This document shows positions 21,071-32,298 of a DNA stretch of 41,455 bases, in pieces. Under the pieces are notes generated by a model, which was given only the letters and a program-made list of their open reading frames with translations, was not told where the DNA came from and made no database searches. This DNA comes from a virus. Position 1 is the stretch's first letter, and each line of letters starts with the position of its first letter. Location: IMG/VR virus record IMGVR_UViG_3300021976_000036, positions 1-41,455 of that record. One strand, given 5' to 3'. The translations under genes were made by a program, and so were the position numbers.

Positions 21071-21288
21071 GCTAACCGCTCCGCTTCCGCCGCTTCCGCA
21101 GCAATGGCCATGCTAAGGACCCCGCGTCGGGCGTCAGTAACGGCCTTCCCGGTGAGCCGTACCAAGCCCTCGACGCTATTACCCCGAACAACCCGCGCCA
21201 CTTTGTACGTGGTGATGGGGTCACCGTGCAGAGTGGTTACCTGAACCTCGGTACTGACGAGGACGCTATAGTTTTCCAGTGTCGGCAT
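21067..21288 (-). CDS. Small beta-rich hypothetical protein
   Basis: A 73-residue protein, MPTLENYSVLVSTEVQVTTL, reading on as HGDPITTYKVARVVRGNSVE and GLVRLTGKAVTDARRGVLSM. Strand-rich N-terminus, helical C-terminus. The start is set by AGGAGG nine bases before the ATG; the frame upstream is a ThyX shadow. No known family. Confidence 0.6.
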   Translation of the reverse strand: MPTLENYSVLVSTEVQVTTLHGDPITTYKVARVVRGNSVEGLVRLTGKAVTDARRGVLSMAIAAEAAEAERLA

Positions 21289-22247
21289 TACGCCTCCTGG
21301 GTACGCGCTGCGCCGGGAGTGGCTGCCCACTCGCGGTCGTGGATGGGCGGGAGGGCAGTTACACCCAAGTAACCAGGGGGACCCCACTCTCCCCATTCAC
21401 TGCTCGGCCGACCGGCTCTCTCGTTAGCGTCCACCCGCTCCCGGATGTTGCACGTCCGGTCGAAGCTTGCCTTGAAGGCGCACGACCCCGTTTGGTAGCA
21501 CACCGGACGGATAGCGTTGGCCAGGAACTTGAACTGCCACCGATCCGCGCCTACGGCATAGTCCTCGTCTACCGTACTCCACTCCCGGAGCGCCCTAGCC
21601 ACCTCGGCGAAGACGATACGCCAGATGAACTGTGCCTGTGTGCAGGTGCGCAAACCAGCCACATGCAATAGCTCACGGAGGCTGACCACCCAATGGATAC
21701 GGGTCTGAATAGCGTTCGGCAACAGCCCTCGCGCCTCCTCAGCCGGTACGCCGTTGTTCACCAGAGCGGCATAGGCATCCTCAATGCTGTTGAGGGTGCG
21801 TTGCCAGATACGGGCCTGAGCACTGTCCGGTTCTGCGGCAAGGGAAGGGGGGAGGGGGATGCCGCCAGCCCAATCCTCCGGCACGGCGAACCGCAGCGAC
21901 TCCTGCACGTACATGGCGTTACGACCTCGGACATGCTGATGCGTGAAGGCCCGGTCCACCCCTTCGAACAGGATGACAAAGTTGACGGACTCGAGGGCAC
22001 TGTTGAGCGCGGTTGCCTGCATGTCGGCAAACGCCTTCCGCCGTTCATCGTCGGTGATCTCGCTCAGGCTGCGCACCACCCGACCCTTATACAAAGTCGT
22101 GATAGCGGCCAGCGTGCCGAGCGGATCCGGGGTGGCGTTGAGGATACGCACCGTAGGTCCCTTGCGGGCTTCCTCCGGCATCGGCTCCTGGTGGTACTGC
22201 TGTGCGTCGGCCCAACGTTGCATTGCCTTGCCTGGCTCTTCTCCCAT
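21288..22247 (-). CDS. thyX: Divergent flavin-dependent thymidylate synthase (ThyX-like)
   Basis: A 319-residue protein, MGEEPGKAMQRWADAQQYHQ (start ATG 22247; TAATG overlap). ThyX makes dTMP from dUMP with FAD and methylenetetrahydrofolate. The segment FTHQHVRGRNAMYVQESLRF (101-120) matches the RHRxxSxNExSxRY signature in outline: His/Gln/His/Arg then E-S-x-R-F. EGVDRAFTHQ and RWQFKFLANAIRPVCYQTGS (late substrate-binding motif with R-x-L-P/C-type residues) also fit. It differs from the consensus: the usual Ser after the Arg is Gly/Arg-Asn, so activity or product may be altered. The C-terminus has extra sequence. The SDR and zinc protein genes nearby are not known ThyX partners. Confidence 0.75.
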   Translation of the reverse strand: MGEEPGKAMQRWADAQQYHQEPMPEEARKGPTVRILNATPDPLGTLAAITTLYKGRVVRSLSEITDDERRKAFADMQATALNSALESVNFVILFEGVDRAFTHQHVRGRNAMYVQESLRFAVPEDWAGGIPLPPSLAAEPDSAQARIWQRTLNSIEDAYAALVNNGVPAEEARGLLPNAIQTRIHWVVSLRELLHVAGLRTCTQAQFIWRIVFAEVARALREWSTVDEDYAVGADRWQFKFLANAIRPVCYQTGSCAFKASFDRTCNIRERVDANERAGRPSSEWGEWGPPGYLGVTALPPIHDREWAATPGAARTQEA

Positions 22248-22432
22248 TACTTCTCCTTTGCGCAACTCTCGCATACGACACGGATGACCATCCGTTCGTT
22301 TACTTTGGTGCCAACAACCGTGATCTCTCTGTATTCCTGTTCGTAGGCTACGTCTCCCGGATGTAGCTGCTTGCCGCACTTAGCTTGGCAGGGCTGTCCC
22401 GGTGCAACCCCACCATGCCCTTTCCCCTCCAT
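22247..22432 (-). CDS. Small zinc-ribbon protein
   Basis: A 61-residue protein from ATG 22432, MEGKGHGGVAPGQPCQAKCG, then KQLHPGDVAYEQEYREITVV and CESCAKEK. Two Cys pairs (C15-x3-C19 and VVCESCAKEK) bracket a beta stretch, as in small treble-clef/zinc-ribbon proteins. The frame extends upstream into the tRNA gene, where it reads as an artefact. AAGGGG lies before the start. Role unknown. Confidence 0.6.
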   Translation of the reverse strand: MEGKGHGGVAPGQPCQAKCGKQLHPGDVAYEQEYREITVVGTKVNERMVIRVVCESCAKEK

Positions 22433-22474: not shown

Positions 22475-22558
22475 CGCTCCGGGCGGGACTCGAACCCACA
22501 CACTGACTCACCGATGAGGGGCGGCAAGCCTTGCTCTAACCATTTGAGCTACCGGAGC
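22475..22558 (-). tRNA. tRNA-like gene with extended anticodon arm (identity uncertain)
   Basis: An 84-base gene. Acceptor GCTCCGG/CCGGAGC (7 bp), D arm GCTC..GAGC with AAATGGTTA loop, T arm GTGGG-TTCGAGT-CCCGC and a short variable AGTGT are canonical. The anticodon arm is not: GGCTTGCCG pairs with CGGTGAGTC for nine positions (three G-T wobbles), closing an eight-base loop CCCCTCAT. No U33 is present. The triplet read could be CTC (Glu) or CCT (Arg); loops of eight bases occur in four-base decoding suppressor tRNAs. CCA is not encoded. I cannot assign an amino acid; a degenerate or non-decoding tRNA mimic is possible. Confidence 0.65.
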
Positions 22559-22562
22559 GAGT

Positions 22563-22595
22563 GGCTGCCTGCCCGGTTGCCGCGAGCAGGCAGCC
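22563..22595 (-). terminator. Hairpin between surface-protein gene and tRNA
   Basis: GGCTGCCTGC (22563-22572) and GCAGGCAGCC (22586-22595), ten perfect base pairs and a 13-base loop, five bases beyond the surface-protein stop (22601) and five before the tRNA. No U-tract. Could terminate, or mark the tRNA for processing. Confidence 0.55.
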
Positions 22596-22600
22596 GGTCT

Positions 22601-23524
22601 TCACGCTGTTGCGGTCGTGTGCCTGCGGTAAGCCACCGTCAACAACGCTCCGCCGAGTGACAGTAGCGCCACACTGACGAACACCATCGACCACGGGAAC
22701 CTACCGCCCGTTGTCGGTAGGTCGTCGCTGTTACCGACGGGGACCGCCGGTTCGGTGGTAGGAGTGGCGTCAGGGGTTTCTCCCGGCGTTGTCGGGGTTA
22801 TGGGGCCGGGGGTCGGCGTCTGTGTCGGGCTGTTGCTGGCGGAAGGGGAAGCGCTGGCCGTCGGGCTGACGATTTCCGAAGGCGTCGACGTCGGGTCTGC
22901 CGAAGGAGTCGAGCACACCTTGCCGGTGATGTTGTTTCCCTCGCCACCAGCCGTCCCGGTGCTGGACTCGGTCCGTGACTCGCACGCCGTCTCGTACTTC
23001 CACGTCCAGGAGTCGAACGTCAGGGTGGCGTCGGTGAAGTATCGCAGCGGCCACTTGCTGGTCGTGCGCTCCACCGGCACGTCTGATTTGCAGTCGAATT
23101 CGCTGTTGTCGTACTCCACCTCGAGAATGGCCAGACTGACGGCGTCCTTAAGCGCTCCAGTCACAGTGAACTCACCATCGCCTTGGAGGTCACCCGTGAC
23201 CGCCATACTGATCGGCACGGCCGAATCACCGGGGGACGCGGCGCCGACCTGAGTGGTGAAGGTGCCCTCGTCAGCGATGGCGACCTTGTATGTTCCGGCA
23301 ACGTCGCCGGCCGTGATGGTGGTGGTGCGCTTGAAGGTGTCCCGTGCCCACGGCTCGGGGCATCCGTCGTCCGGCGTGTTGGTGATCTCCACCGTAGACG
23401 TGTGTACGGCATCGGCTTGCGCCGGACTGGTGACCAGGAACCCGAGCCCGATCAGGGCAGCCAACAGGGCCACAAGACAGGCGAGACCCCTACCGTACCG
23501 GGGTCCCTCGTTGTGTCCGTTCAT
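22601..23524 (-). CDS. Secreted LPXTG-type surface protein
   Basis: A 307-residue exported protein. Residues 11-37 are a signal peptide (CLVALLAALIGLGFLVTSPA then QA-DA). Residues ~40-180 form the exposed domain with Thr/Asp-rich beta strands and Cys pairs (C55, C145, C181, C204). Residues ~205-265 are Ser/Thr/Pro-rich, a cell-wall spanning stalk. LPTTG (269-273) is followed by a hydrophobic segment and YRRHTTATA: a sortase sorting signal. Sortases of the host would link the Thr to peptidoglycan. Thus a phage protein may become a covalently anchored host surface protein during infection. It has a ribosome site AAAGGAGCAAT before ATG 23524 and its own hairpins on both sides, so may be a separately transcribed gene. 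Confidence 0.8.
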   Translation of the reverse strand: MNGHNEGPRYGRGLACLVALLAALIGLGFLVTSPAQADAVHTSTVEITNTPDDGCPEPWARDTFKRTTTITAGDVAGTYKVAIADEGTFTTQVGAASPGDSAVPISMAVTGDLQGDGEFTVTGALKDAVSLAILEVEYDNSEFDCKSDVPVERTTSKWPLRYFTDATLTFDSWTWKYETACESRTESSTGTAGGEGNNITGKVCSTPSADPTSTPSEIVSPTASASPSASNSPTQTPTPGPITPTTPGETPDATPTTEPAVPVGNSDDLPTTGGRFPWSMVFVSVALLSLGGALLTVAYRRHTTATA

Positions 23525-25194: not shown

Positions 25195-25683
25195 TCATAC
25201 ATGCTTCCACGTTTTGCCAGTTACAATCAGATGAATTGTCCGTTGAGAAACACCATACTCTTTCGCGATGTCTCTCTGGTCTCGGACACCCCGCCCATAC
25301 TCCTTTCTGATTTCTTTAACGCAGGAAGCCGTTAGGCGTACTCCTGAGACATTCTCTCCTCTCAGCTTGGTTCCATGCCGTTCCTTATCTGCTTCATTTT
25401 CCTTCGGGGTAGCCCATCGTAGATTGTCCGGGCGATTATTCAGTTTGTTTCCATCAATATGAGCTGCATGATGTTTAAGGCTCGGTTTTACCCCATGGAA
25501 GGTCTCACATATAACTCGATGGAAAGGAATCGAATGTATGCGATCCCCTATGCGATAGCTAGTAGTGCGATATCCCTTCGGGTTAACATACCCTTTGATA
25601 ATAACGCCATAAATTCCACGTAGTTGGCCTCCGTCACTGGCATAAAGCCCCATGAACTTAGTCTCTTTCCATATAGCCTTCAC
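25195..25683 (-). CDS. HNH homing endonuclease (free-standing)
   Basis: A 162-residue protein, from GTG 25683, overlapping the polymerase stop as GTGA. FHRVICETFHGVKPSLKHHA-AHIDGNKLNNRPDNLRWATP is the HNH_3-type signature (H, N, N residues on a beta-beta-alpha metal fold), and the C-terminal part GVRLTASCVKEIRKEYGRGV with RDIAKEYGVSQRTIHLIVTG is a helix-turn-helix of the kind found in homing enzymes. It lies directly behind the DnaE gene and has lower GC than its neighbours, so it is probably a mobile insertion that copied itself into the space between dnaE and the next gene. It likely cuts cognate intron-less or unoccupied sites in related phages. Confidence 0.85.
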   Translation of the reverse strand: MKAIWKETKFMGLYASDGGQLRGIYGVIIKGYVNPKGYRTTSYRIGDRIHSIPFHRVICETFHGVKPSLKHHAAHIDGNKLNNRPDNLRWATPKENEADKERHGTKLRGENVSGVRLTASCVKEIRKEYGRGVRDQRDIAKEYGVSQRTIHLIVTGKTWKHV

Positions 25684-28600
25684 CCCTGTCCCCCCATTCG
25701 AAGGACATGCAATTCGGTTGCATAAATCGCCCTCCTATACTCACTGCGCTTGTATCCCTTGACAAGCAATAGATCGGTTGCCGGGTTCATGTCCCAGATC
25801 ATGTCTTTGTACCGCTCGTAAAACCCCCTCCACCTATGCACAGTAACCACCAACGGTCCGGTTTCGTCTTCGCCGGTAATCACAACATAGTTAACATACT
25901 CTGGCTCTTTTACCTTCTCCGGGTCCAGTTCTTCGCCAGTGCGAGAACGATGAAGCTCGTAGATGTCCTTGAGGTTGCGGTTGACCACATAGCCGACCCA
26001 AGTGTGCTCACCCCGGATAGCCTCGTACGGTACGTCCTCGCTGCGGGAGGCCGGGAAGGGAAGGCCGTTCTGGTCCCCGTTGTCGAATAGCCAACGGCGC
26101 ACCTTGGCTAGCGTCTTGCGCATAGTGTGAATGCCGAACGGGTCTTCCTCAGATACAAACTCCGTTATCATCTTGAGCTTGCCAGGCCCGAAGTGCTTCA
26201 TGTCAAGCCAGTGCTCCCAGGACCATTTCTCCTGAGCGGATGCTGGAGTGTTCAGCCACTCCTCGCGGTAGGCCAGCATGCCCTCAGCCATGGTGTCACC
26301 AATACCACGCACTTGCACGAGACCGGCTCGTAGCGCTGGCTTGCCCTTCACCTTGGTACGGCTCCATTGGATGTCACTCCGAACTGGATGCGGAGGCAGG
26401 ATCTTGATGCCCTTGCTGGTAGCCTCCTTCAGGATATCCAGTGCCTTGGCCTTATGTGCGGGCTTGCTGAACTTCTGAAGGGCAGCGCAATAGAACTCGA
26501 GGGGATGGTTTTGCTTCAGCCACATGCACCAGTAGGCCAACATGCCGTAGCTCACGCAATGAGCCGCGTTGTTCGCACTTACAATTCCATTGCCAACGTA
26601 GTTATGGTTCTCGTCTTCCATCTCCACATCACATACCCAGCCGACGCCGGCTCCCTCGATTAACTCCACCTTCTCTAGGTGGGTTTCCCGTCCTAGAGAC
26701 CAACGCTTCTTACGCTCTCCCTTTCCGTAGTCGAACTTCTTGTGGCAGGAGTTGCATAGATGAAGAACGTTACGGGGATGATCGTAGTCGGCCCGACTCT
26801 TTAGTTCGTACAGGCTCAGTACGTGAGAGAATTCTAGGGTGTGTGCGACCCCATCATCAGGCTTACCGCAATGCTCGCAGTTGTCGCCGCTACGCCTACG
26901 TACAGTAGCCTCGAAAGGTTTGTTGCGAGAACTGTTCTTCGGAGCCAACTGACGTGCCTTCGGCTTGTCTCCTATGCACACTAGTTCGTCGTCAATCGTC
27001 AGGTTCTCTATGGCGACATACCCCCGTTGCGTCAGGACAGGGTGCTCGGGACTTCCGAAGATCTCTTTTCCGATCTCCGTTCTCACCCGAACCATCGGCT
27101 TCATCACGCGCGGACTGACGTCACCCAGATGGCGCGGTCTCACCATTCCATCTTCGTCCATGGAGTATATCTGGAGACCTCTTAGGCGAAACTGGTCTCG
27201 CCAACTCTTGCATCTACGACATCTTCCAGCATAGTAGAGCCGCCGCTTCTCGCCTACATAGTGCCATTCCTCGACGTGTCCACAAACGACGCATCCGTCA
27301 GTGGAATTATCTCCTCTCTTATGGATAAGATCGCTCAGCTCTCCGAGTGTGATTGTGTTGTTTCTGCCAGCGGTCATGCCGTCTTCCGGAACGCCACCAA
27401 GACCGCCTCGGTAAACGAGGGTGTTCTCATTTAGGCAAAAGGCGTACGCGCCAGCCGTCACAAGTTGCTTCCAGATACGCAATGCGATTGCATGCGGGAC
27501 ACCGAGCTCTGCGGAGCCGGATAAGAACTTTCCCTGTAGCCGGTTGAACGCCTGCTCGCCTCGCTTCTTGCTAATCAGCTTTCTAACGTTGGCAGCCTCT
27601 TCCCAACTGAACCCGCCCAACTCCCGCACCGTCCGGTGAATCTGCTCCTGGTAAACGATCTGCCCCTGGGTAAATTCTGTGATATCAGTTACTACCGGGT
27701 GCAATCGTTCGACCTTCTTCTTTCCGTGCTTGGCCATGATGTAATCGGCCGCCGCACCACTGTGTAACGGACCAGGACGGGCTAGCGCATTGATGTCACA
27801 TATCTCTGCGAAGTTGTCTGGCTTCACTTCACGGTTTACGCTCCGCATTGCACGCCCGTCAAACTGAAAGATACCAACGACCTCGTTGCGGCGGAAGCCT
27901 GCGAACACCTTCTCGTCGTCGAGGGGTATCGCATACAACCCCTCGAGAGTCATGCCAATCATATCCAACGCACGGCCGATGAGGCCCATGTTGGTAAGCC
28001 CTAGGAAGTCCATCTTCAATGCGCCGATGTACTCGGCGTCATACTTGTCAATGGACAACACCGAGGCCCGTATCTTCTGGCCGGTCTCCTTGTCCTTTGT
28101 CTCCCTAGTGTATACCGCTAGGCTGTTCGTGAGAGGCTCTTCAGCTACTACCAGACCGGCCGCGTGCACGCTGAAGCCCTTCAGGTTACCCTCGAGCCGT
28201 TGCGCGTCCCGTAGTTTGGGGTGGTCCTCAAATACCTTGGCCACCTTGGGGAACATAGCGATGCTGTCCTCAATGGTGCTCGCTGCCCGTAGGTCACCAG
28301 AGGAGCGCTCAATCAACCCCTCCTTCACCTGGTCTACCGCCCACACTGGTATCCGGTGCACTCGGGCGGCATCGTCGAGGCTGTTCTTGCCTTTGTACAT
28401 GTTGAACGTTCCGATGTTGCCAACCCGGTCCGCTCCGTACATACGCACCAAGTAGTCCCGGATTCTCCACCGCTTCTCATCATCGAAGTCCAGGTCTACG
28501 TCTGGCAAGTCGTGACGGTTCTCGTCAATGAACCTACCGAAGATGAGGTTGGAGAAGTGCATGGGGTTGATCTCAGTTATACGCAACAGGTAGCACACCA

Positions 28601-29744
28601 ACGAGGCCGCTGCGCTACCGCGAGCCGGGCCTACCGCAATGCCTTCCTCCTTGGCCCAACGCACCACATCCCCAATGACCAGGAAGTAGTCGAGGAATCC
28701 TTTGCGCTCCATCAGGTCTAGCTCGTGCTTTACCCGGCGTTTGTATTCCCGGCGCAGATCCCTAGGCAGGATATTGAACCCTCGGTAGCGCCACCCCTCG
28801 CTCAGCAACTTACGGAATAGCTGCGGGGCGGGAAGGTGGCCGGGGAAGACCAGATCCTTCAGCTTCGGGAGCGTGACCTGACAGCGACTAGCGATTTCCA
28901 CCGTTGAGTCAATCGCCCATCGTGAATCACGTAGTGACATCCCGGTGTCCCGCAAACCCCGAAGGATAGTGTTGGCGGATTGGTGCGCCAATACGAGGCC
29001 ATACTCCCACGACTGCGCCTGAGCCTCCACTGTGTTATTCCTACCGCCCCGGTCAATGGCGTGTAGGAGAGGGTATATGCTCTGATCCTCGGGGCTTGGA
29101 TAGTGCACGTCTCCAGTAGCCACCAGCGGCACGTCGATTTTGCGCGATAGCCGCGATAGCGCTTGGTTGTACGCAACTTGTTTGTCAAGGAGAGGGTGCG
29201 GTTGTACCTCCAGATAGTATCGGTCTCCGAAGATGTCCTTGAAGCGGTTCGCAACTCGCGCAGCACTCCGTAGGTCAGCCGCATGCTCTTCTTCTCCCTT
29301 GCCACCAAGCATGGTGGTAGCTAACCGGCCACCAAGGCATCCGCTCAAAACGATGAGGCCCTCGTTGTAATCGGCTAGCATCTCGCCGGTTGTCGTTGGC
29401 TTGTATCTGAAGTTCTCCCACGACGCGCTCACCAAGCGATACAGGTTACGCAGTCCGGCCTTGTTGCTCGCCAATACCGTCAGGTGATGCTTCAACTGGC
29501 CGCGCGCATCCCCGGTATCGCAATACAGTTCGCATCCAAATACTGCCTTGGCGCCAAACTCCGTCGCAGCCTTCTCTCCCTTTGGATGGCTGCTCACGTT
29601 GCCGTGCTCGGTAAACGCAGTGCCTAGTCGACCAAGCTCAACGGCGGATTGCATGTGTAGGCGTGGCTGACGGTATCCGTCTCCAGGGCTGAAGGTGGTG
29701 TGCTCATGAAGCTCGAAGTAGTCTTCCTCCTTCAGCCTTTCCAT
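25680..29744 (-). CDS. dnaE: DNA polymerase III alpha subunit (DnaE-type), containing an intein
   Basis: A 1354-residue precursor, ~1065 residues after splicing, starting MERLKEEDYFELHEHTTFSP at ATG 29744, eight bases after GGGGGAG; an upstream in-frame codon 14 residues earlier lies in the previous gene. The N-terminal PHP domain has HEHTTFS (13-19), ATGDVHYPSPEDQ (209-) and HGNVSSH motifs. The palm has GPARGSAAASLVCYLL and the catalytic PDVDLDF (414-420), followed by YLVRMYGADRVGNIGTFNMY. C-terminal to the intein: AAHCVSYGMLAYWCMWLKQN and helix-hairpin-helix DNA-binding regions. It replicates phage DNA. The helicase-primase, UDG and resolvase genes in the same strand block are its natural partners. 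Its length fits short phage DnaE enzymes. Splicing is needed for a functional polymerase. Confidence 0.9.
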   Translation of the reverse strand: MERLKEEDYFELHEHTTFSPGDGYRQPRLHMQSAVELGRLGTAFTEHGNVSSHPKGEKAATEFGAKAVFGCELYCDTGDARGQLKHHLTVLASNKAGLRNLYRLVSASWENFRYKPTTTGEMLADYNEGLIVLSGCLGGRLATTMLGGKGEEEHAADLRSAARVANRFKDIFGDRYYLEVQPHPLLDKQVAYNQALSRLSRKIDVPLVATGDVHYPSPEDQSIYPLLHAIDRGGRNNTVEAQAQSWEYGLVLAHQSANTILRGLRDTGMSLRDSRWAIDSTVEIASRCQVTLPKLKDLVFPGHLPAPQLFRKLLSEGWRYRGFNILPRDLRREYKRRVKHELDLMERKGFLDYFLVIGDVVRWAKEEGIAVGPARGSAAASLVCYLLRITEINPMHFSNLIFGRFIDENRHDLPDVDLDFDDEKRWRIRDYLVRMYGADRVGNIGTFNMYKGKNSLDDAARVHRIPVWAVDQVKEGLIERSSGDLRAASTIEDSIAMFPKVAKVFEDHPKLRDAQRLEGNLKGFSVHAAGLVVAEEPLTNSLAVYTRETKDKETGQKIRASVLSIDKYDAEYIGALKMDFLGLTNMGLIGRALDMIGMTLEGLYAIPLDDEKVFAGFRRNEVVGIFQFDGRAMRSVNREVKPDNFAEICDINALARPGPLHSGAAADYIMAKHGKKKVERLHPVVTDITEFTQGQIVYQEQIHRTVRELGGFSWEEAANVRKLISKKRGEQAFNRLQGKFLSGSAELGVPHAIALRIWKQLVTAGAYAFCLNENTLVYRGGLGGVPEDGMTAGRNNTITLGELSDLIHKRGDNSTDGCVVCGHVEEWHYVGEKRRLYYAGRCRRCKSWRDQFRLRGLQIYSMDEDGMVRPRHLGDVSPRVMKPMVRVRTEIGKEIFGSPEHPVLTQRGYVAIENLTIDDELVCIGDKPKARQLAPKNSSRNKPFEATVRRRSGDNCEHCGKPDDGVAHTLEFSHVLSLYELKSRADYDHPRNVLHLCNSCHKKFDYGKGERKKRWSLGRETHLEKVELIEGAGVGWVCDVEMEDENHNYVGNGIVSANNAAHCVSYGMLAYWCMWLKQNHPLEFYCAALQKFSKPAHKAKALDILKEATSKGIKILPPHPVRSDIQWSRTKVKGKPALRAGLVQVRGIGDTMAEGMLAYREEWLNTPASAQEKWSWEHWLDMKHFGPGKLKMITEFVSEEDPFGIHTMRKTLAKVRRWLFDNGDQNGLPFPASRSEDVPYEAIRGEHTWVGYVVNRNLKDIYELHRSRTGEELDPEKVKEPEYVNYVVITGEDETGPLVVTVHRWRGFYERYKDMIWDMNPATDLLLVKGYKRSEYRRAIYATELHVLRMGGQG
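26571..27437 (-). other. Intein with HNH domain in DnaE; noncanonical +1 residue
   Basis: A 289-residue insertion (polymerase residues 770-1058) interrupting GAYAF / NAAHCVSYG. It begins CLNENTLVYRG (C1), has block-B-like SPEHPVLT (129-136, H132), and ends HNYVGNGIVSAN. Between lies a Zn-binding pair set (C49-x2-C52, C73-x2-C76) and an HNH endonuclease domain (C187-x2-C190, FSH, N223, C228-x2-C231). The Ala before the terminal Asn is tolerated (as in cyanobacterial DnaE inteins ending AAN), but the next residue is Asn, not Cys/Ser/Thr. HNH-type inteins are fewer than LAGLIDADG types. The insertion site is two residues downstream of the cyanobacterial split DnaE intein site, which strengthens the call. 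Confidence 0.85.
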
Positions 29745-29962
29745 CAGTAGCACTCCCCCGCATGCACCAGGAAGCACGACCCGCACATCGTCGCACGAGC
29801 CTTGGCCCGGACAGCTTCAGATAGCTCCTGGCCTTCCGCTTCAGGGCACTCCGCCTCCACAAGATCACCGTCTTTGTCATACGTCACTTTGGTGCCAGCC
29901 TGGAACCGCTCATTGCAAGTGGCGCACACTCCGGGGAAGTTAGCTGTGAACACCTTCGCCAT
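29744..29962 (-). CDS. Small zinc-finger protein
   Basis: A 72-residue protein, MAKVFTANFPGVCATCNERF, with two CxxC pairs (C13-x2-C16 and C60-x2-C63) around a charged middle. PGVCATCNERFQAGTKVTYD resembles the first half of many small actinophage zinc-ribbon proteins, often annotated as unknown. It is translationally coupled to the polymerase gene (stop TGA overlaps the ATG). It could load or regulate the polymerase, but this is only inferred from the coupling. Confidence 0.7.
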   Translation of the reverse strand: MAKVFTANFPGVCATCNERFQAGTKVTYDKDGDLVEAECPEAEGQELSEAVRAKARATMCGSCFLVHAGECY

Positions 29963-31203: not shown

Positions 31204-31679
31204 AACAGGATCACCCAGAGCAACGCCTTGCCGAAGATGACCAGAGCCGTGAGCACGAACGACCACATGAGAAGGGTGCCTGCCGTATGCCGCACCGTCC
31301 GGTGCCATTCCGGGTCGCTAACCCGTACGTACGCCAGGAAGAACGCCGTGACGGCGTTCCACAGTCGCAACCACCACGGCGGACGGCGAGGAGGGGGCGA
31401 CGGCGGCGGATACCCGCCCATCCGTAGCTGACCCTCTATCGCCTGCATGGCCGCATGGAGGCCAGCAGGGTTAAACCAGGGTGCTGCCGTAGGTGTTGAG
31501 GCCGTAGCCTCGGTCTGGGTGGCCTTGGGTCGGCGCACCTGTCGTAGGCGCACCAGAGCCTCGCGGGCGTTACGCAACTTGCGACTTGCTCGATGACGTA
31601 CTGGACCGATGTGTGTCCGAAGCCCGTCGCTGGTGAGGTAATGCTCGTGCCCTCGAATTATCAGGGTGTCCGTTGCCAT
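31200..31679 (-). CDS. Membrane protein with Pro-rich linker
   Basis: A 159-residue protein, MATDTLIIRGHEHYLTSDGL, with GGAGG before ATG 31679. The N-terminal half is basic and helical (SRKLRNAREALVRLRQVRRP); the middle is Pro-rich (GGYPPPSPPPRRPPWW); the C-terminal part has two hydrophobic segments (AVTAFFLAYVRVSD and TLLMWSFVLTALVIFGKALL). It therefore looks like a two-helix inner membrane protein with the N-terminus in the cytoplasm. It overlaps the HAD gene by 110 bases and the next gene by four. Function unknown. Confidence 0.7.
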   Translation of the reverse strand: MATDTLIIRGHEHYLTSDGLRTHIGPVRHRASRKLRNAREALVRLRQVRRPKATQTEATASTPTAAPWFNPAGLHAAMQAIEGQLRMGGYPPPSPPPRRPPWWLRLWNAVTAFFLAYVRVSDPEWHRTVRHTAGTLLMWSFVLTALVIFGKALLWVILL

Positions 31680-32298
31680 AGCTATCCCTCCACTTTTCCA
31701 ACCGCTCTTCTAAGCGGTAAGCAATGTCTTCGTAATTGTTCAGCGCTTGATAGGTAGACGGGTTAGCAGCCCACGCTCGCGCATTGTGTGGACGAACTGC
31801 CATCACCGGCCAAACGTCAAGAGCCTTTCCTGCCTGCACTAGCATCTCTGGTAGGTCATCTAGAACAGTTACTACCCGCTCCTTGCCGAGCGTACGAGCT
31901 AGGTCCCGGTACTTATGCTCGCCCCATACAATACCCTGGCACTGGATACCATTACGGCGCAACCAGTGGCGAGTATCCCCATCAATGTTATCGTGACTGA
32001 GATACGGCCGGGTAGTGCAAACCCACACATCCGTACCCCACGAGCGCAGCGTGCGGGTTAGATCGGCTGCCCATGGAAAGGCTGGCATGCTGCGCTTCAT
32101 ACCTCCCATCCGGTAAGCCAGCTTGCATTGCCGATACGTCTGTTTGCTCACGTGTAGGTGTTGAAACAATGGAAGCCGGATGTCATACTCCCGGTCTACT
32201 GGCTTACCAAGCCACCCCTCCGCAAAGTTAAGGAAGTGCGGATAGAAGTCACCCATTGTGCCATCAAGGTCTAACCCAAACACTGGCCGCTCACTCAT
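31570..32298 (-). CDS. HAD-superfamily 5'-nucleotidase / phosphatase
   Basis: A 242-residue enzyme. VFGLDLDGTMGDFYPHF gives the DxD nucleophile pair (D10, D12). A cap segment RMGGMKRSMPAFPWAADLTR is followed by VWVCTTRPYLSHD (motif II Thr) and RVVTVLDDLPEMLVQA (late acidic motif). This is the layout of a small HAD phosphatase of the dNMP 5'-nucleotidase kind. It could free nucleosides from host DNA breakdown or remove unwanted dNMPs. The last ~35 residues lie over the next gene in another frame and look disordered. It overlaps the small gene upstream by eight bases. Confidence 0.8.
   Translation of the reverse strand: MSERPVFGLDLDGTMGDFYPHFLNFAEGWLGKPVDREYDIRLPLFQHLHVSKQTYRQCKLAYRMGGMKRSMPAFPWAADLTRTLRSWGTDVWVCTTRPYLSHDNIDGDTRHWLRRNGIQCQGIVWGEHKYRDLARTLGKERVVTVLDDLPEMLVQAGKALDVWPVMAVRPHNARAWAANPSTYQALNNYEDIAYRLEERLEKWRDSYGNGHPDNSRARALPHQRRASDTHRSSTSSSKSQVA

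Follow-up and report, generated by a model that had tools for sequence, protein, structure and literature searches.

Debate over what phage tRNA genes do is decades old and has centered mainly on codon supply and the replacement of cleaved host tRNAs. The +1 frameshift suppressor tRNAs have an eight-base anticodon loop and keep the five-pair stem and U33. Phage tRNAs with mutations in the anticodon loop evade host anticodon nucleases (PMC10264068), and phage tRNAs have also been found to overcome retron or PARIS defense (PMC11555353). Non-standard cloverleaves, some with a longer (6-pair) anticodon stem, are formed by tRNA-Sec, allo-tRNA, and tRNA-Pyl; these tRNAs keep the decoding loop and alter the acceptor/T or variable arms, and none of the examples considered has a 9-pair anticodon stem (PMC7609411).

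The window analyzed in this work, i.e., the entire 41,455-base virus record, encodes a tRNA-like gene that is similar to the defense-countering tRNAs (PMC10264068, PMC11555353) in being phage-encoded. However, those tRNAs, which are linked to tRNA-targeting defense, are described as working molecules that replace cleaved host tRNAs, whereas the window gene has no usable anticodon arm. The gene and its parts are as follows.

22475..22558, minus strand: tRNA-like gene, 84 nt (ARAGORN; Rfam RF00005, 44 bits; MFE fold)
22552..22558 and 22476-22482, minus strand: acceptor stem, 5' strand GCUCCGG and 3' strand CCGGAGC, 7/7 Watson-Crick pairs (sequence, fold)
22533..22549, minus strand: D arm GCUC-AAAUGGUUA-GAGC, 4 pairs, with A14 and G18G19 and preceded by U8 A9 (sequence, Rfam alignment)
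22532-22531, minus strand: AA spacer before the anticodon arm
22505..22530, minus strand: remodeled anticodon arm, stem GGCUUGCCG (22530-22522) / CGGUGAGUC (22513-22505) (fold, alternatives, shuffles)
22521-22514, minus strand: 8-nt loop CCCCUCAU of that arm (fold)
22500..22504, minus strand: variable region AGUGU, short, of class I size (fold)
22483..22499, minus strand: T arm GUGGG-UUCGAGU-CCCGC, 5 pairs, one of them G-U (fold, Rfam)

When run on the whole window, ARAGORN reported a single tRNA, c[22474,22558], labeled 'Gly gcc', and the match to Rfam RF00005 covered the full length of the gene (44 bits, E value of 2.9e-6). The original prediction had the coordinates of the gene right, 22475-22558, but its strand had to be corrected to minus, with the RNA running from 22558 to 22475; the plus-strand RNA of this region folds worse, at -30.6 kcal/mol versus -37.1 kcal/mol for the unconstrained RNAfold structure of the minus strand. 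That structure has the canonical acceptor, D, and T arms that had been claimed, with 7/7, 4/4, and 5/5 pairs, respectively. The gene thus has the body of a class I tRNA, namely, a 7-pair acceptor stem, a 4-pair D arm with G18G19, and a 5-pair T arm with UUCRA. No CCA is encoded, and the discriminator base is G (22475).

The anticodon stem in the predicted MFE fold comprises 9 consecutive pairs (6 Watson-Crick and 3 G-U), and the loop has no U33, with a C at that position. The nine-pair stem, the eight-base loop, and the lack of U33, all noted from the letters alone, were reproduced by an unconstrained fold of the minus strand. Five-pair or canonical-register arms evaluated for the same gene reached only -22.6 to -27.5 kcal/mol. 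With the body fixed, the nine-pair fold was better than trimmed versions of its own stem by 2.4 kcal/mol and better than the evaluated canonical or five-pair alternatives by ~10 kcal/mol or more. In the ARAGORN drawing, only 3 of the 5 anticodon-stem positions are paired. Shuffling of the middle segment produced a placed helix of at least 9 pairs in 0.24% (mononucleotide) and 0.11% (dinucleotide) of the cases.

This arm does not fit the tRNA types with which it was compared. The 5-pair stem, 7-base loop, and U33 of the canonical class I anticodon arm are all missing. The 8-base loop is shared with the +1 suppressor tRNAs, unlike their 5-pair stem and U33, which are absent here. The combination of a canonical anticodon arm with a long variable arm that defines type II tRNAs is not found either, and instead of the 8/5, 8/4, or 9/3 branch with a long variable arm of tRNA-Sec and allo-tRNA, there is a 7/5 branch with a 5-nt variable region. 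Archaeal-type intron-bearing tRNAs have a 5-pair stem, C32 U33, and extra bases after position 37; in the window gene, the first five pairs are followed by GCCG, and such an intron was excluded owing to the lack of C32 U33.

A tRNA-like element with a number of the same properties was found between gp13 and gp14 of the Streptomyces phage phiC31, as well as in its relatives Lilbooboo, Vash, Euratis, Samora, phiBT1, RemusLoopin, Sebastisaurus, and Heather. No feature is annotated over this RNA in the records of phiC31 and phiBT1, where it occupies the following positions.

L301 2501-2587 (AJ006589.3, 31424-31510): phiC31 element
L302 1501-1574: phiBT1 element

The phiC31 element and the window gene share the acceptor stem GCUCCGG/CCGGAGC, a class I body, and the absence of a canonical anticodon arm. 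Both are intergenic, co-oriented with their neighbors, and located in actinophage genomes of roughly 41 kb. They differ in the arm itself, which in phiC31 consists of a 4-pair stem, a 6-nt palindromic segment, and a capped inner hairpin and in phiBT1 of 5 pairs with a 9-nt loop, as opposed to the 9-pair rod of the window gene. The T-stem sequence of the phiC31 family is different, too, and the likeness need not reflect common descent.

Among the 12 members of the phiC31 family that were compared, a cloverleaf with the non-canonical arm had 98.9% of its cells paired, and 10 of the 24 pairs had changed on both sides; none of the 500 shuffles was as good, and no slid control came close. Within the arm, compensated pairs accounted for 2 of 4 in the non-canonical outer stem and 1 of 4 in the inner hairpin. 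Compensatory changes occur in the acceptor stem, the T stem, and the non-canonical anticodon stem alike, so that this element is, on comparative grounds, an RNA that is maintained as RNA; the compensatory evidence is that of the phiC31 family, the window gene being known from a single copy. In phiBT1, an almost identical body lies between the same two genes, but its arm, CCCCC/GGGGG closing a loop of 9 nt, is quite different. Given that phiBT1 keeps the body in place with another arm, it appears that in this family the body is constrained and the arm is replaceable. The 6-nt palindrome of the phiC31 family varies and yet stays palindromic (CCCGGG, CCUAGG, and UCCGGA), and a possible role for it is a kissing or dimer contact. 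Most members of the family also have an inner hairpin with a GNRA-type cap.

Similar genes were sought in viral contigs with a pattern that fixed the common class I D-arm and T-loop bases and called for a middle that exceeded the combined length of a normal anticodon arm and a short variable region. At least 120 stretches matched. Since the pattern itself selected the D-arm and T-loop bases, the conserved elbow cannot serve as separate evidence here; the acceptor stem lies outside the pattern, and only acceptor pairing, T-stem pairing, and the arm helices count as independent. Among the matches listed, 90 were usable and lacked a canonical arm, and 65 of these had 7/7 and 15 had 6/7 acceptor pairs, compared to 0.2% and 1.9%, respectively, expected by chance. 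Two scans of viral contigs together yielded at least 99 distinct sequences with 6 or 7 of the 7 acceptor pairs and no canonical anticodon arm. An outer helix of at least 4 pairs was seen in 62 of the 99 listed non-canonical middles versus 20.7 expected, and one of at least 7 pairs in 15 of the 99 versus 1.5 expected (a maximum of 5 in 300 shuffle rounds). Several of these arms are as clear as that of the window gene, such as the 11-pair stem with the loop CUUG in L280/L300 and the 10-pair stem with the loop GCAA in L115. Loop sizes in the listed class range from 4 bases (in L280 and L115) to more than 20. A tRNA was called by ARAGORN in 76 of the 99 listed sequences, most commonly with no isotype, and 62 of the 99 are, like the window gene, the sole tRNA on their own loci; the representative loci gave tRNA matches only.

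The window gene, with its canonical body and structured, non-canonical anticodon arm, fits this working class. The class is defined by what its members lack and may be a mixture: some of the viral matches may be intron-bearing tRNAs of archaeal viruses or tRNAs with long variable arms. In cellular genomes, the same pattern retrieves mostly archaeal intron-bearing tRNAs, which, unlike the window gene, have a normal 5' half that includes C32 U33. Some other recurrent arrangements were noticed. A common loop motif, GCAUUUGCG, occurs in the rebuilt arms of L037, L075, and L103. Several class I-bodied tRNAs (L027, L030, L066, L140, L166, L195, L205, and others) have a UUAUAC-type loop with a UAU anticodon; tRNAs with this loop have a long variable arm with GAUUA/GAUAA and are found in viral contigs and in bacterial genomes, e.g., of Actinomyces and Marinobacter.

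Genes of a similar kind in Gordonia phages bear the labels 'tRNA-OTHER' or 'Undet', or else isotypes (Ala, Leu, and Val) that conflict even though the genes are evidently alike. Examples include those in the phages Smoothie, Culver, Miskis, WilliamBoone ('tRNA-Ala'), BrutonGaster ('tRNA-Leu'), and CherryTomatoes ('tRNA-Val'). Their annotation is inconsistent. They resemble the window gene in having canonical acceptor, D, and T arms, a length of 80 to 89 nt, and no 5-pair/7-base arm. In contrast to the window gene, their arms contain a GGUGCACC-like segment and AAAACA, and the genes are mostly located inside tRNA clusters. Rebuilt arms with a palindromic 6-10-mer (GGUGCACC, GGGAUCCC, AGGGCCCU, or GUGCGCAC) followed by AAACA were seen in Gordonia phages, a Paenibacillus genome, and viral contigs (L178 and L239, from genome contigs, and L096, L253, and L260-L263). 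Palindromes in rebuilt arms numbered 23 versus 13.9 expected among the listed sequences, a weak excess from which no general enrichment is claimed.

The explanation that we favor, and to which we would assign roughly even chances, is that the window gene encodes a tRNA-like RNA that does not decode and that, through its tRNA body, acts as a decoy by binding some host factor that handles or attacks tRNAs. The steps that we infer for it extend from transcription and processing to the inability to decode, the decoy action, and the target of the decoy. Host enzymes for tRNA maturation would excise the RNA, and a CCA end would be added to it, as can be expected because the acceptor stem, the elbow (D and T loops), and the T stem are intact. 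The RNA would then fold as an L, with a nine-pair rod and an off-register loop for its anticodon limb, and could not act as an adaptor in the ribosome. The window gene retains the parts recognized by elbow-binding proteins and by the enzymes of tRNA maturation and CCA addition, and it lacks those that the ribosome needs for decoding; going by the modeled fold, codon reading by the nine-pair arm is almost certainly ruled out. Such an RNA might engage, as a decoy or inhibitor, a host factor that recognizes the tRNA body or 3' end, such as a translation factor, an enzyme of tRNA modification, or a defense enzyme or toxin that attacks tRNAs, and its anticodon arm would meanwhile be free to change. 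This use is judged most likely because phage tRNAs are known to counter tRNA-directed defense (PMC10264068, PMC11555353). Of the three readings offered in the original prediction, the non-decoding mimic thus fits best, in view of the intact body, the rebuilt arm, and the many similar cases in phages; the recoding tRNA is disfavored for want of U33 and a 5-pair stem, and a decoy is possible, although not preferably one aimed at an anticodon nuclease, since it is precisely the anticodon loop that this RNA lacks.

More tentatively, and with the odds slightly against it, the class in phages as a whole could represent widespread, undescribed tRNA-derived noncoding RNAs that keep the body for processing and recognition, have a fast-changing structured arm, and act outside decoding, probably against host tRNA-directed systems. 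In a search of the open-licence literature, no account of phage tRNAs with a non-decoding arm came up. Non-decoding phage tRNA genes that keep their folds by compensatory mutation, as in the phiC31 family, would show that some phage tRNAs are tRNA mimics. Given the recurrence in many phages, phiC31 included, some phage 'tRNAs' may serve a job other than translation, and the presence of a member in phiC31, a phage in standard laboratory use, makes this question directly testable. The window gene is accordingly more interesting as an example of a recurrent phage RNA class than as a lone oddity. Annotation software assigns an arbitrary isotype to such genes (here, 'Gly'), which distorts phage tRNA counts and codon-usage studies.

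Alternatively, the gene could be a decaying tRNA, i.e., a canonical gene from the host or a phage that received an insertion of ~9 to 11 nt in its anticodon arm and is drifting, with the nine pairs as a by-product of the insert. We consider this unlikely, even though several observations are in line with it. No ortholog of the gene was found by BLAST of the locus against phages and plasmids or by DNA and pattern searches, exact-pattern scans of viral contigs for its arm or the whole tRNA gave no match, and no tRNA was seen at the homologous site in the relatives found via ThyX, portal, and DnaE. In the nearest relative (L012/L014), whose DnaE is 69% identical to that of the window phage, the syntenic site (in L012) has a different small gene and no tRNA; the only tRNA detected in this relative lies elsewhere and has a 5-pair anticodon stem with a 5-base loop. 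In addition, the helix includes three G-U pairs, and with shuffles reaching such a helix in about 0.1 to 0.2% of the cases, a single instance in a large scan could do so as well. Against decay, all three body stems are perfect, the only deviation lies in an arm with good pairing of its own, many phages have the same pattern, and one family shows compensatory evolution. A BLAST hit in a Bordetella phage turned out to be an ordinary-looking tRNA-Arg, and a hit at an unannotated place in a Morganella phage was an ordinary tRNA-Met.

The genomic neighborhood of the gene brings in another alternative. The tRNA-like gene sits in a gap between the gene for an LPTTG protein on one side and a small ORF, followed by thyX, on the other, all of them on the minus strand.

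22601..23524, minus strand: upstream gene for a predicted secreted protein; a membrane segment and, at the C terminus, the sortase-type motif LPTTG (translation)
22563..22595, minus strand: GC-rich hairpin that ends 4 nt upstream of the tRNA 5' end (-29.1 kcal/mol, z -5.6)
22247..22432, minus strand: downstream small ORF, 61 aa, with a Shine-Dalgarno-like AAGGGGAAG, abutting thyX
21288..22249, minus strand: thyX, flavin-dependent thymidylate synthase (Pfam Thy1, 3.7e-30; PHROG thymidylate synthase); the mechanical ORF extends to 22379

The hairpin is terminator-like without a U tail and may be an actinobacterial-type terminator; the 61-aa product of the small ORF had no family match. In this setting, the element could be a cis-acting punctuation mark at which RNase P and RNase Z cut the polycistronic transcript between the LPTTG gene and the small ORF/thyX, with the released body having no function of its own. 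Its place between co-oriented genes, the strong hairpin 4 nt upstream, and the gene start with a Shine-Dalgarno-like sequence after it agree with such a role, for which acceptor and T arms suffice, and the phiC31 and phiBT1 elements are also found between the co-oriented genes gp13 and gp14. However, punctuation leaves unexplained both the complete D arm and the compensated non-canonical arm of the phiC31 family, and other members of the class are located inside tRNA clusters, all of which makes it quite improbable.

A regular tRNA-Gly(GCC) that carries a long variable arm, the form drawn by ARAGORN, is very improbable. In that register, UUGCC does provide U33 and the GCC anticodon, but only 3 of the 5 anticodon-stem pairs form, and the structure is less stable than the 9-pair fold by ~10 kcal/mol or more; G at position 37 and a discriminator G are not typical of tRNA-Gly. 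Least plausible of all is a recoding tRNA that, similarly to the +1 suppressors, would read four bases at a phage frameshift site: the 8-base loop does contain CCCC, and frameshifting is common in phage tail-chaperone genes (the window has a tail assembly chaperone at 1542-2186), but there is no U33, the four extra pairs of the nine-pair stem would push the loop away from the decoding site, and the loop size, once taken as a hint of four-base decoding, is insufficient alone in a class whose loops of 4 to more than 20 bases fit no common decoding scheme.

Two further readings were considered and rejected. An attP remnant of a host tRNA does not agree with the complete 5' half and acceptor pairing of the gene, and no integrase match was found in ~30 scanned window ORFs. 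Involvement in tRNA-dependent lysogeny requires a working tRNA of the host's isotype (PMC10865867).

Besides the tRNA-like gene, the window encodes a DnaE-type polymerase, ThyX, uracil-DNA glycosylase, portal, terminase, and capsid. The best relatives of its DnaE are found in phages of Streptomyces, Gordonia, and Mycobacterium. The 31570-32298 (minus strand) protein matches a PHROG named polynucleotide kinase; by its Pfam matches, it may be a phosphatase of the HAD/NT5C type. The window proteins that were scanned included no recognizable RNA ligase. The protein with the LPTTG motif (22601-23524, minus strand) combines this motif with a membrane segment and a basic tail and is a predicted phage-encoded sortase substrate. 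In the product of the dnaE gene (25680-29786, minus strand), an insert at residues about 896 to 1072 matches Pfam Intein_splicing (below the threshold) and HNH families, and the homologs from other phages align as two pieces flanking this insert, which is probably an intein with a homing endonuclease.
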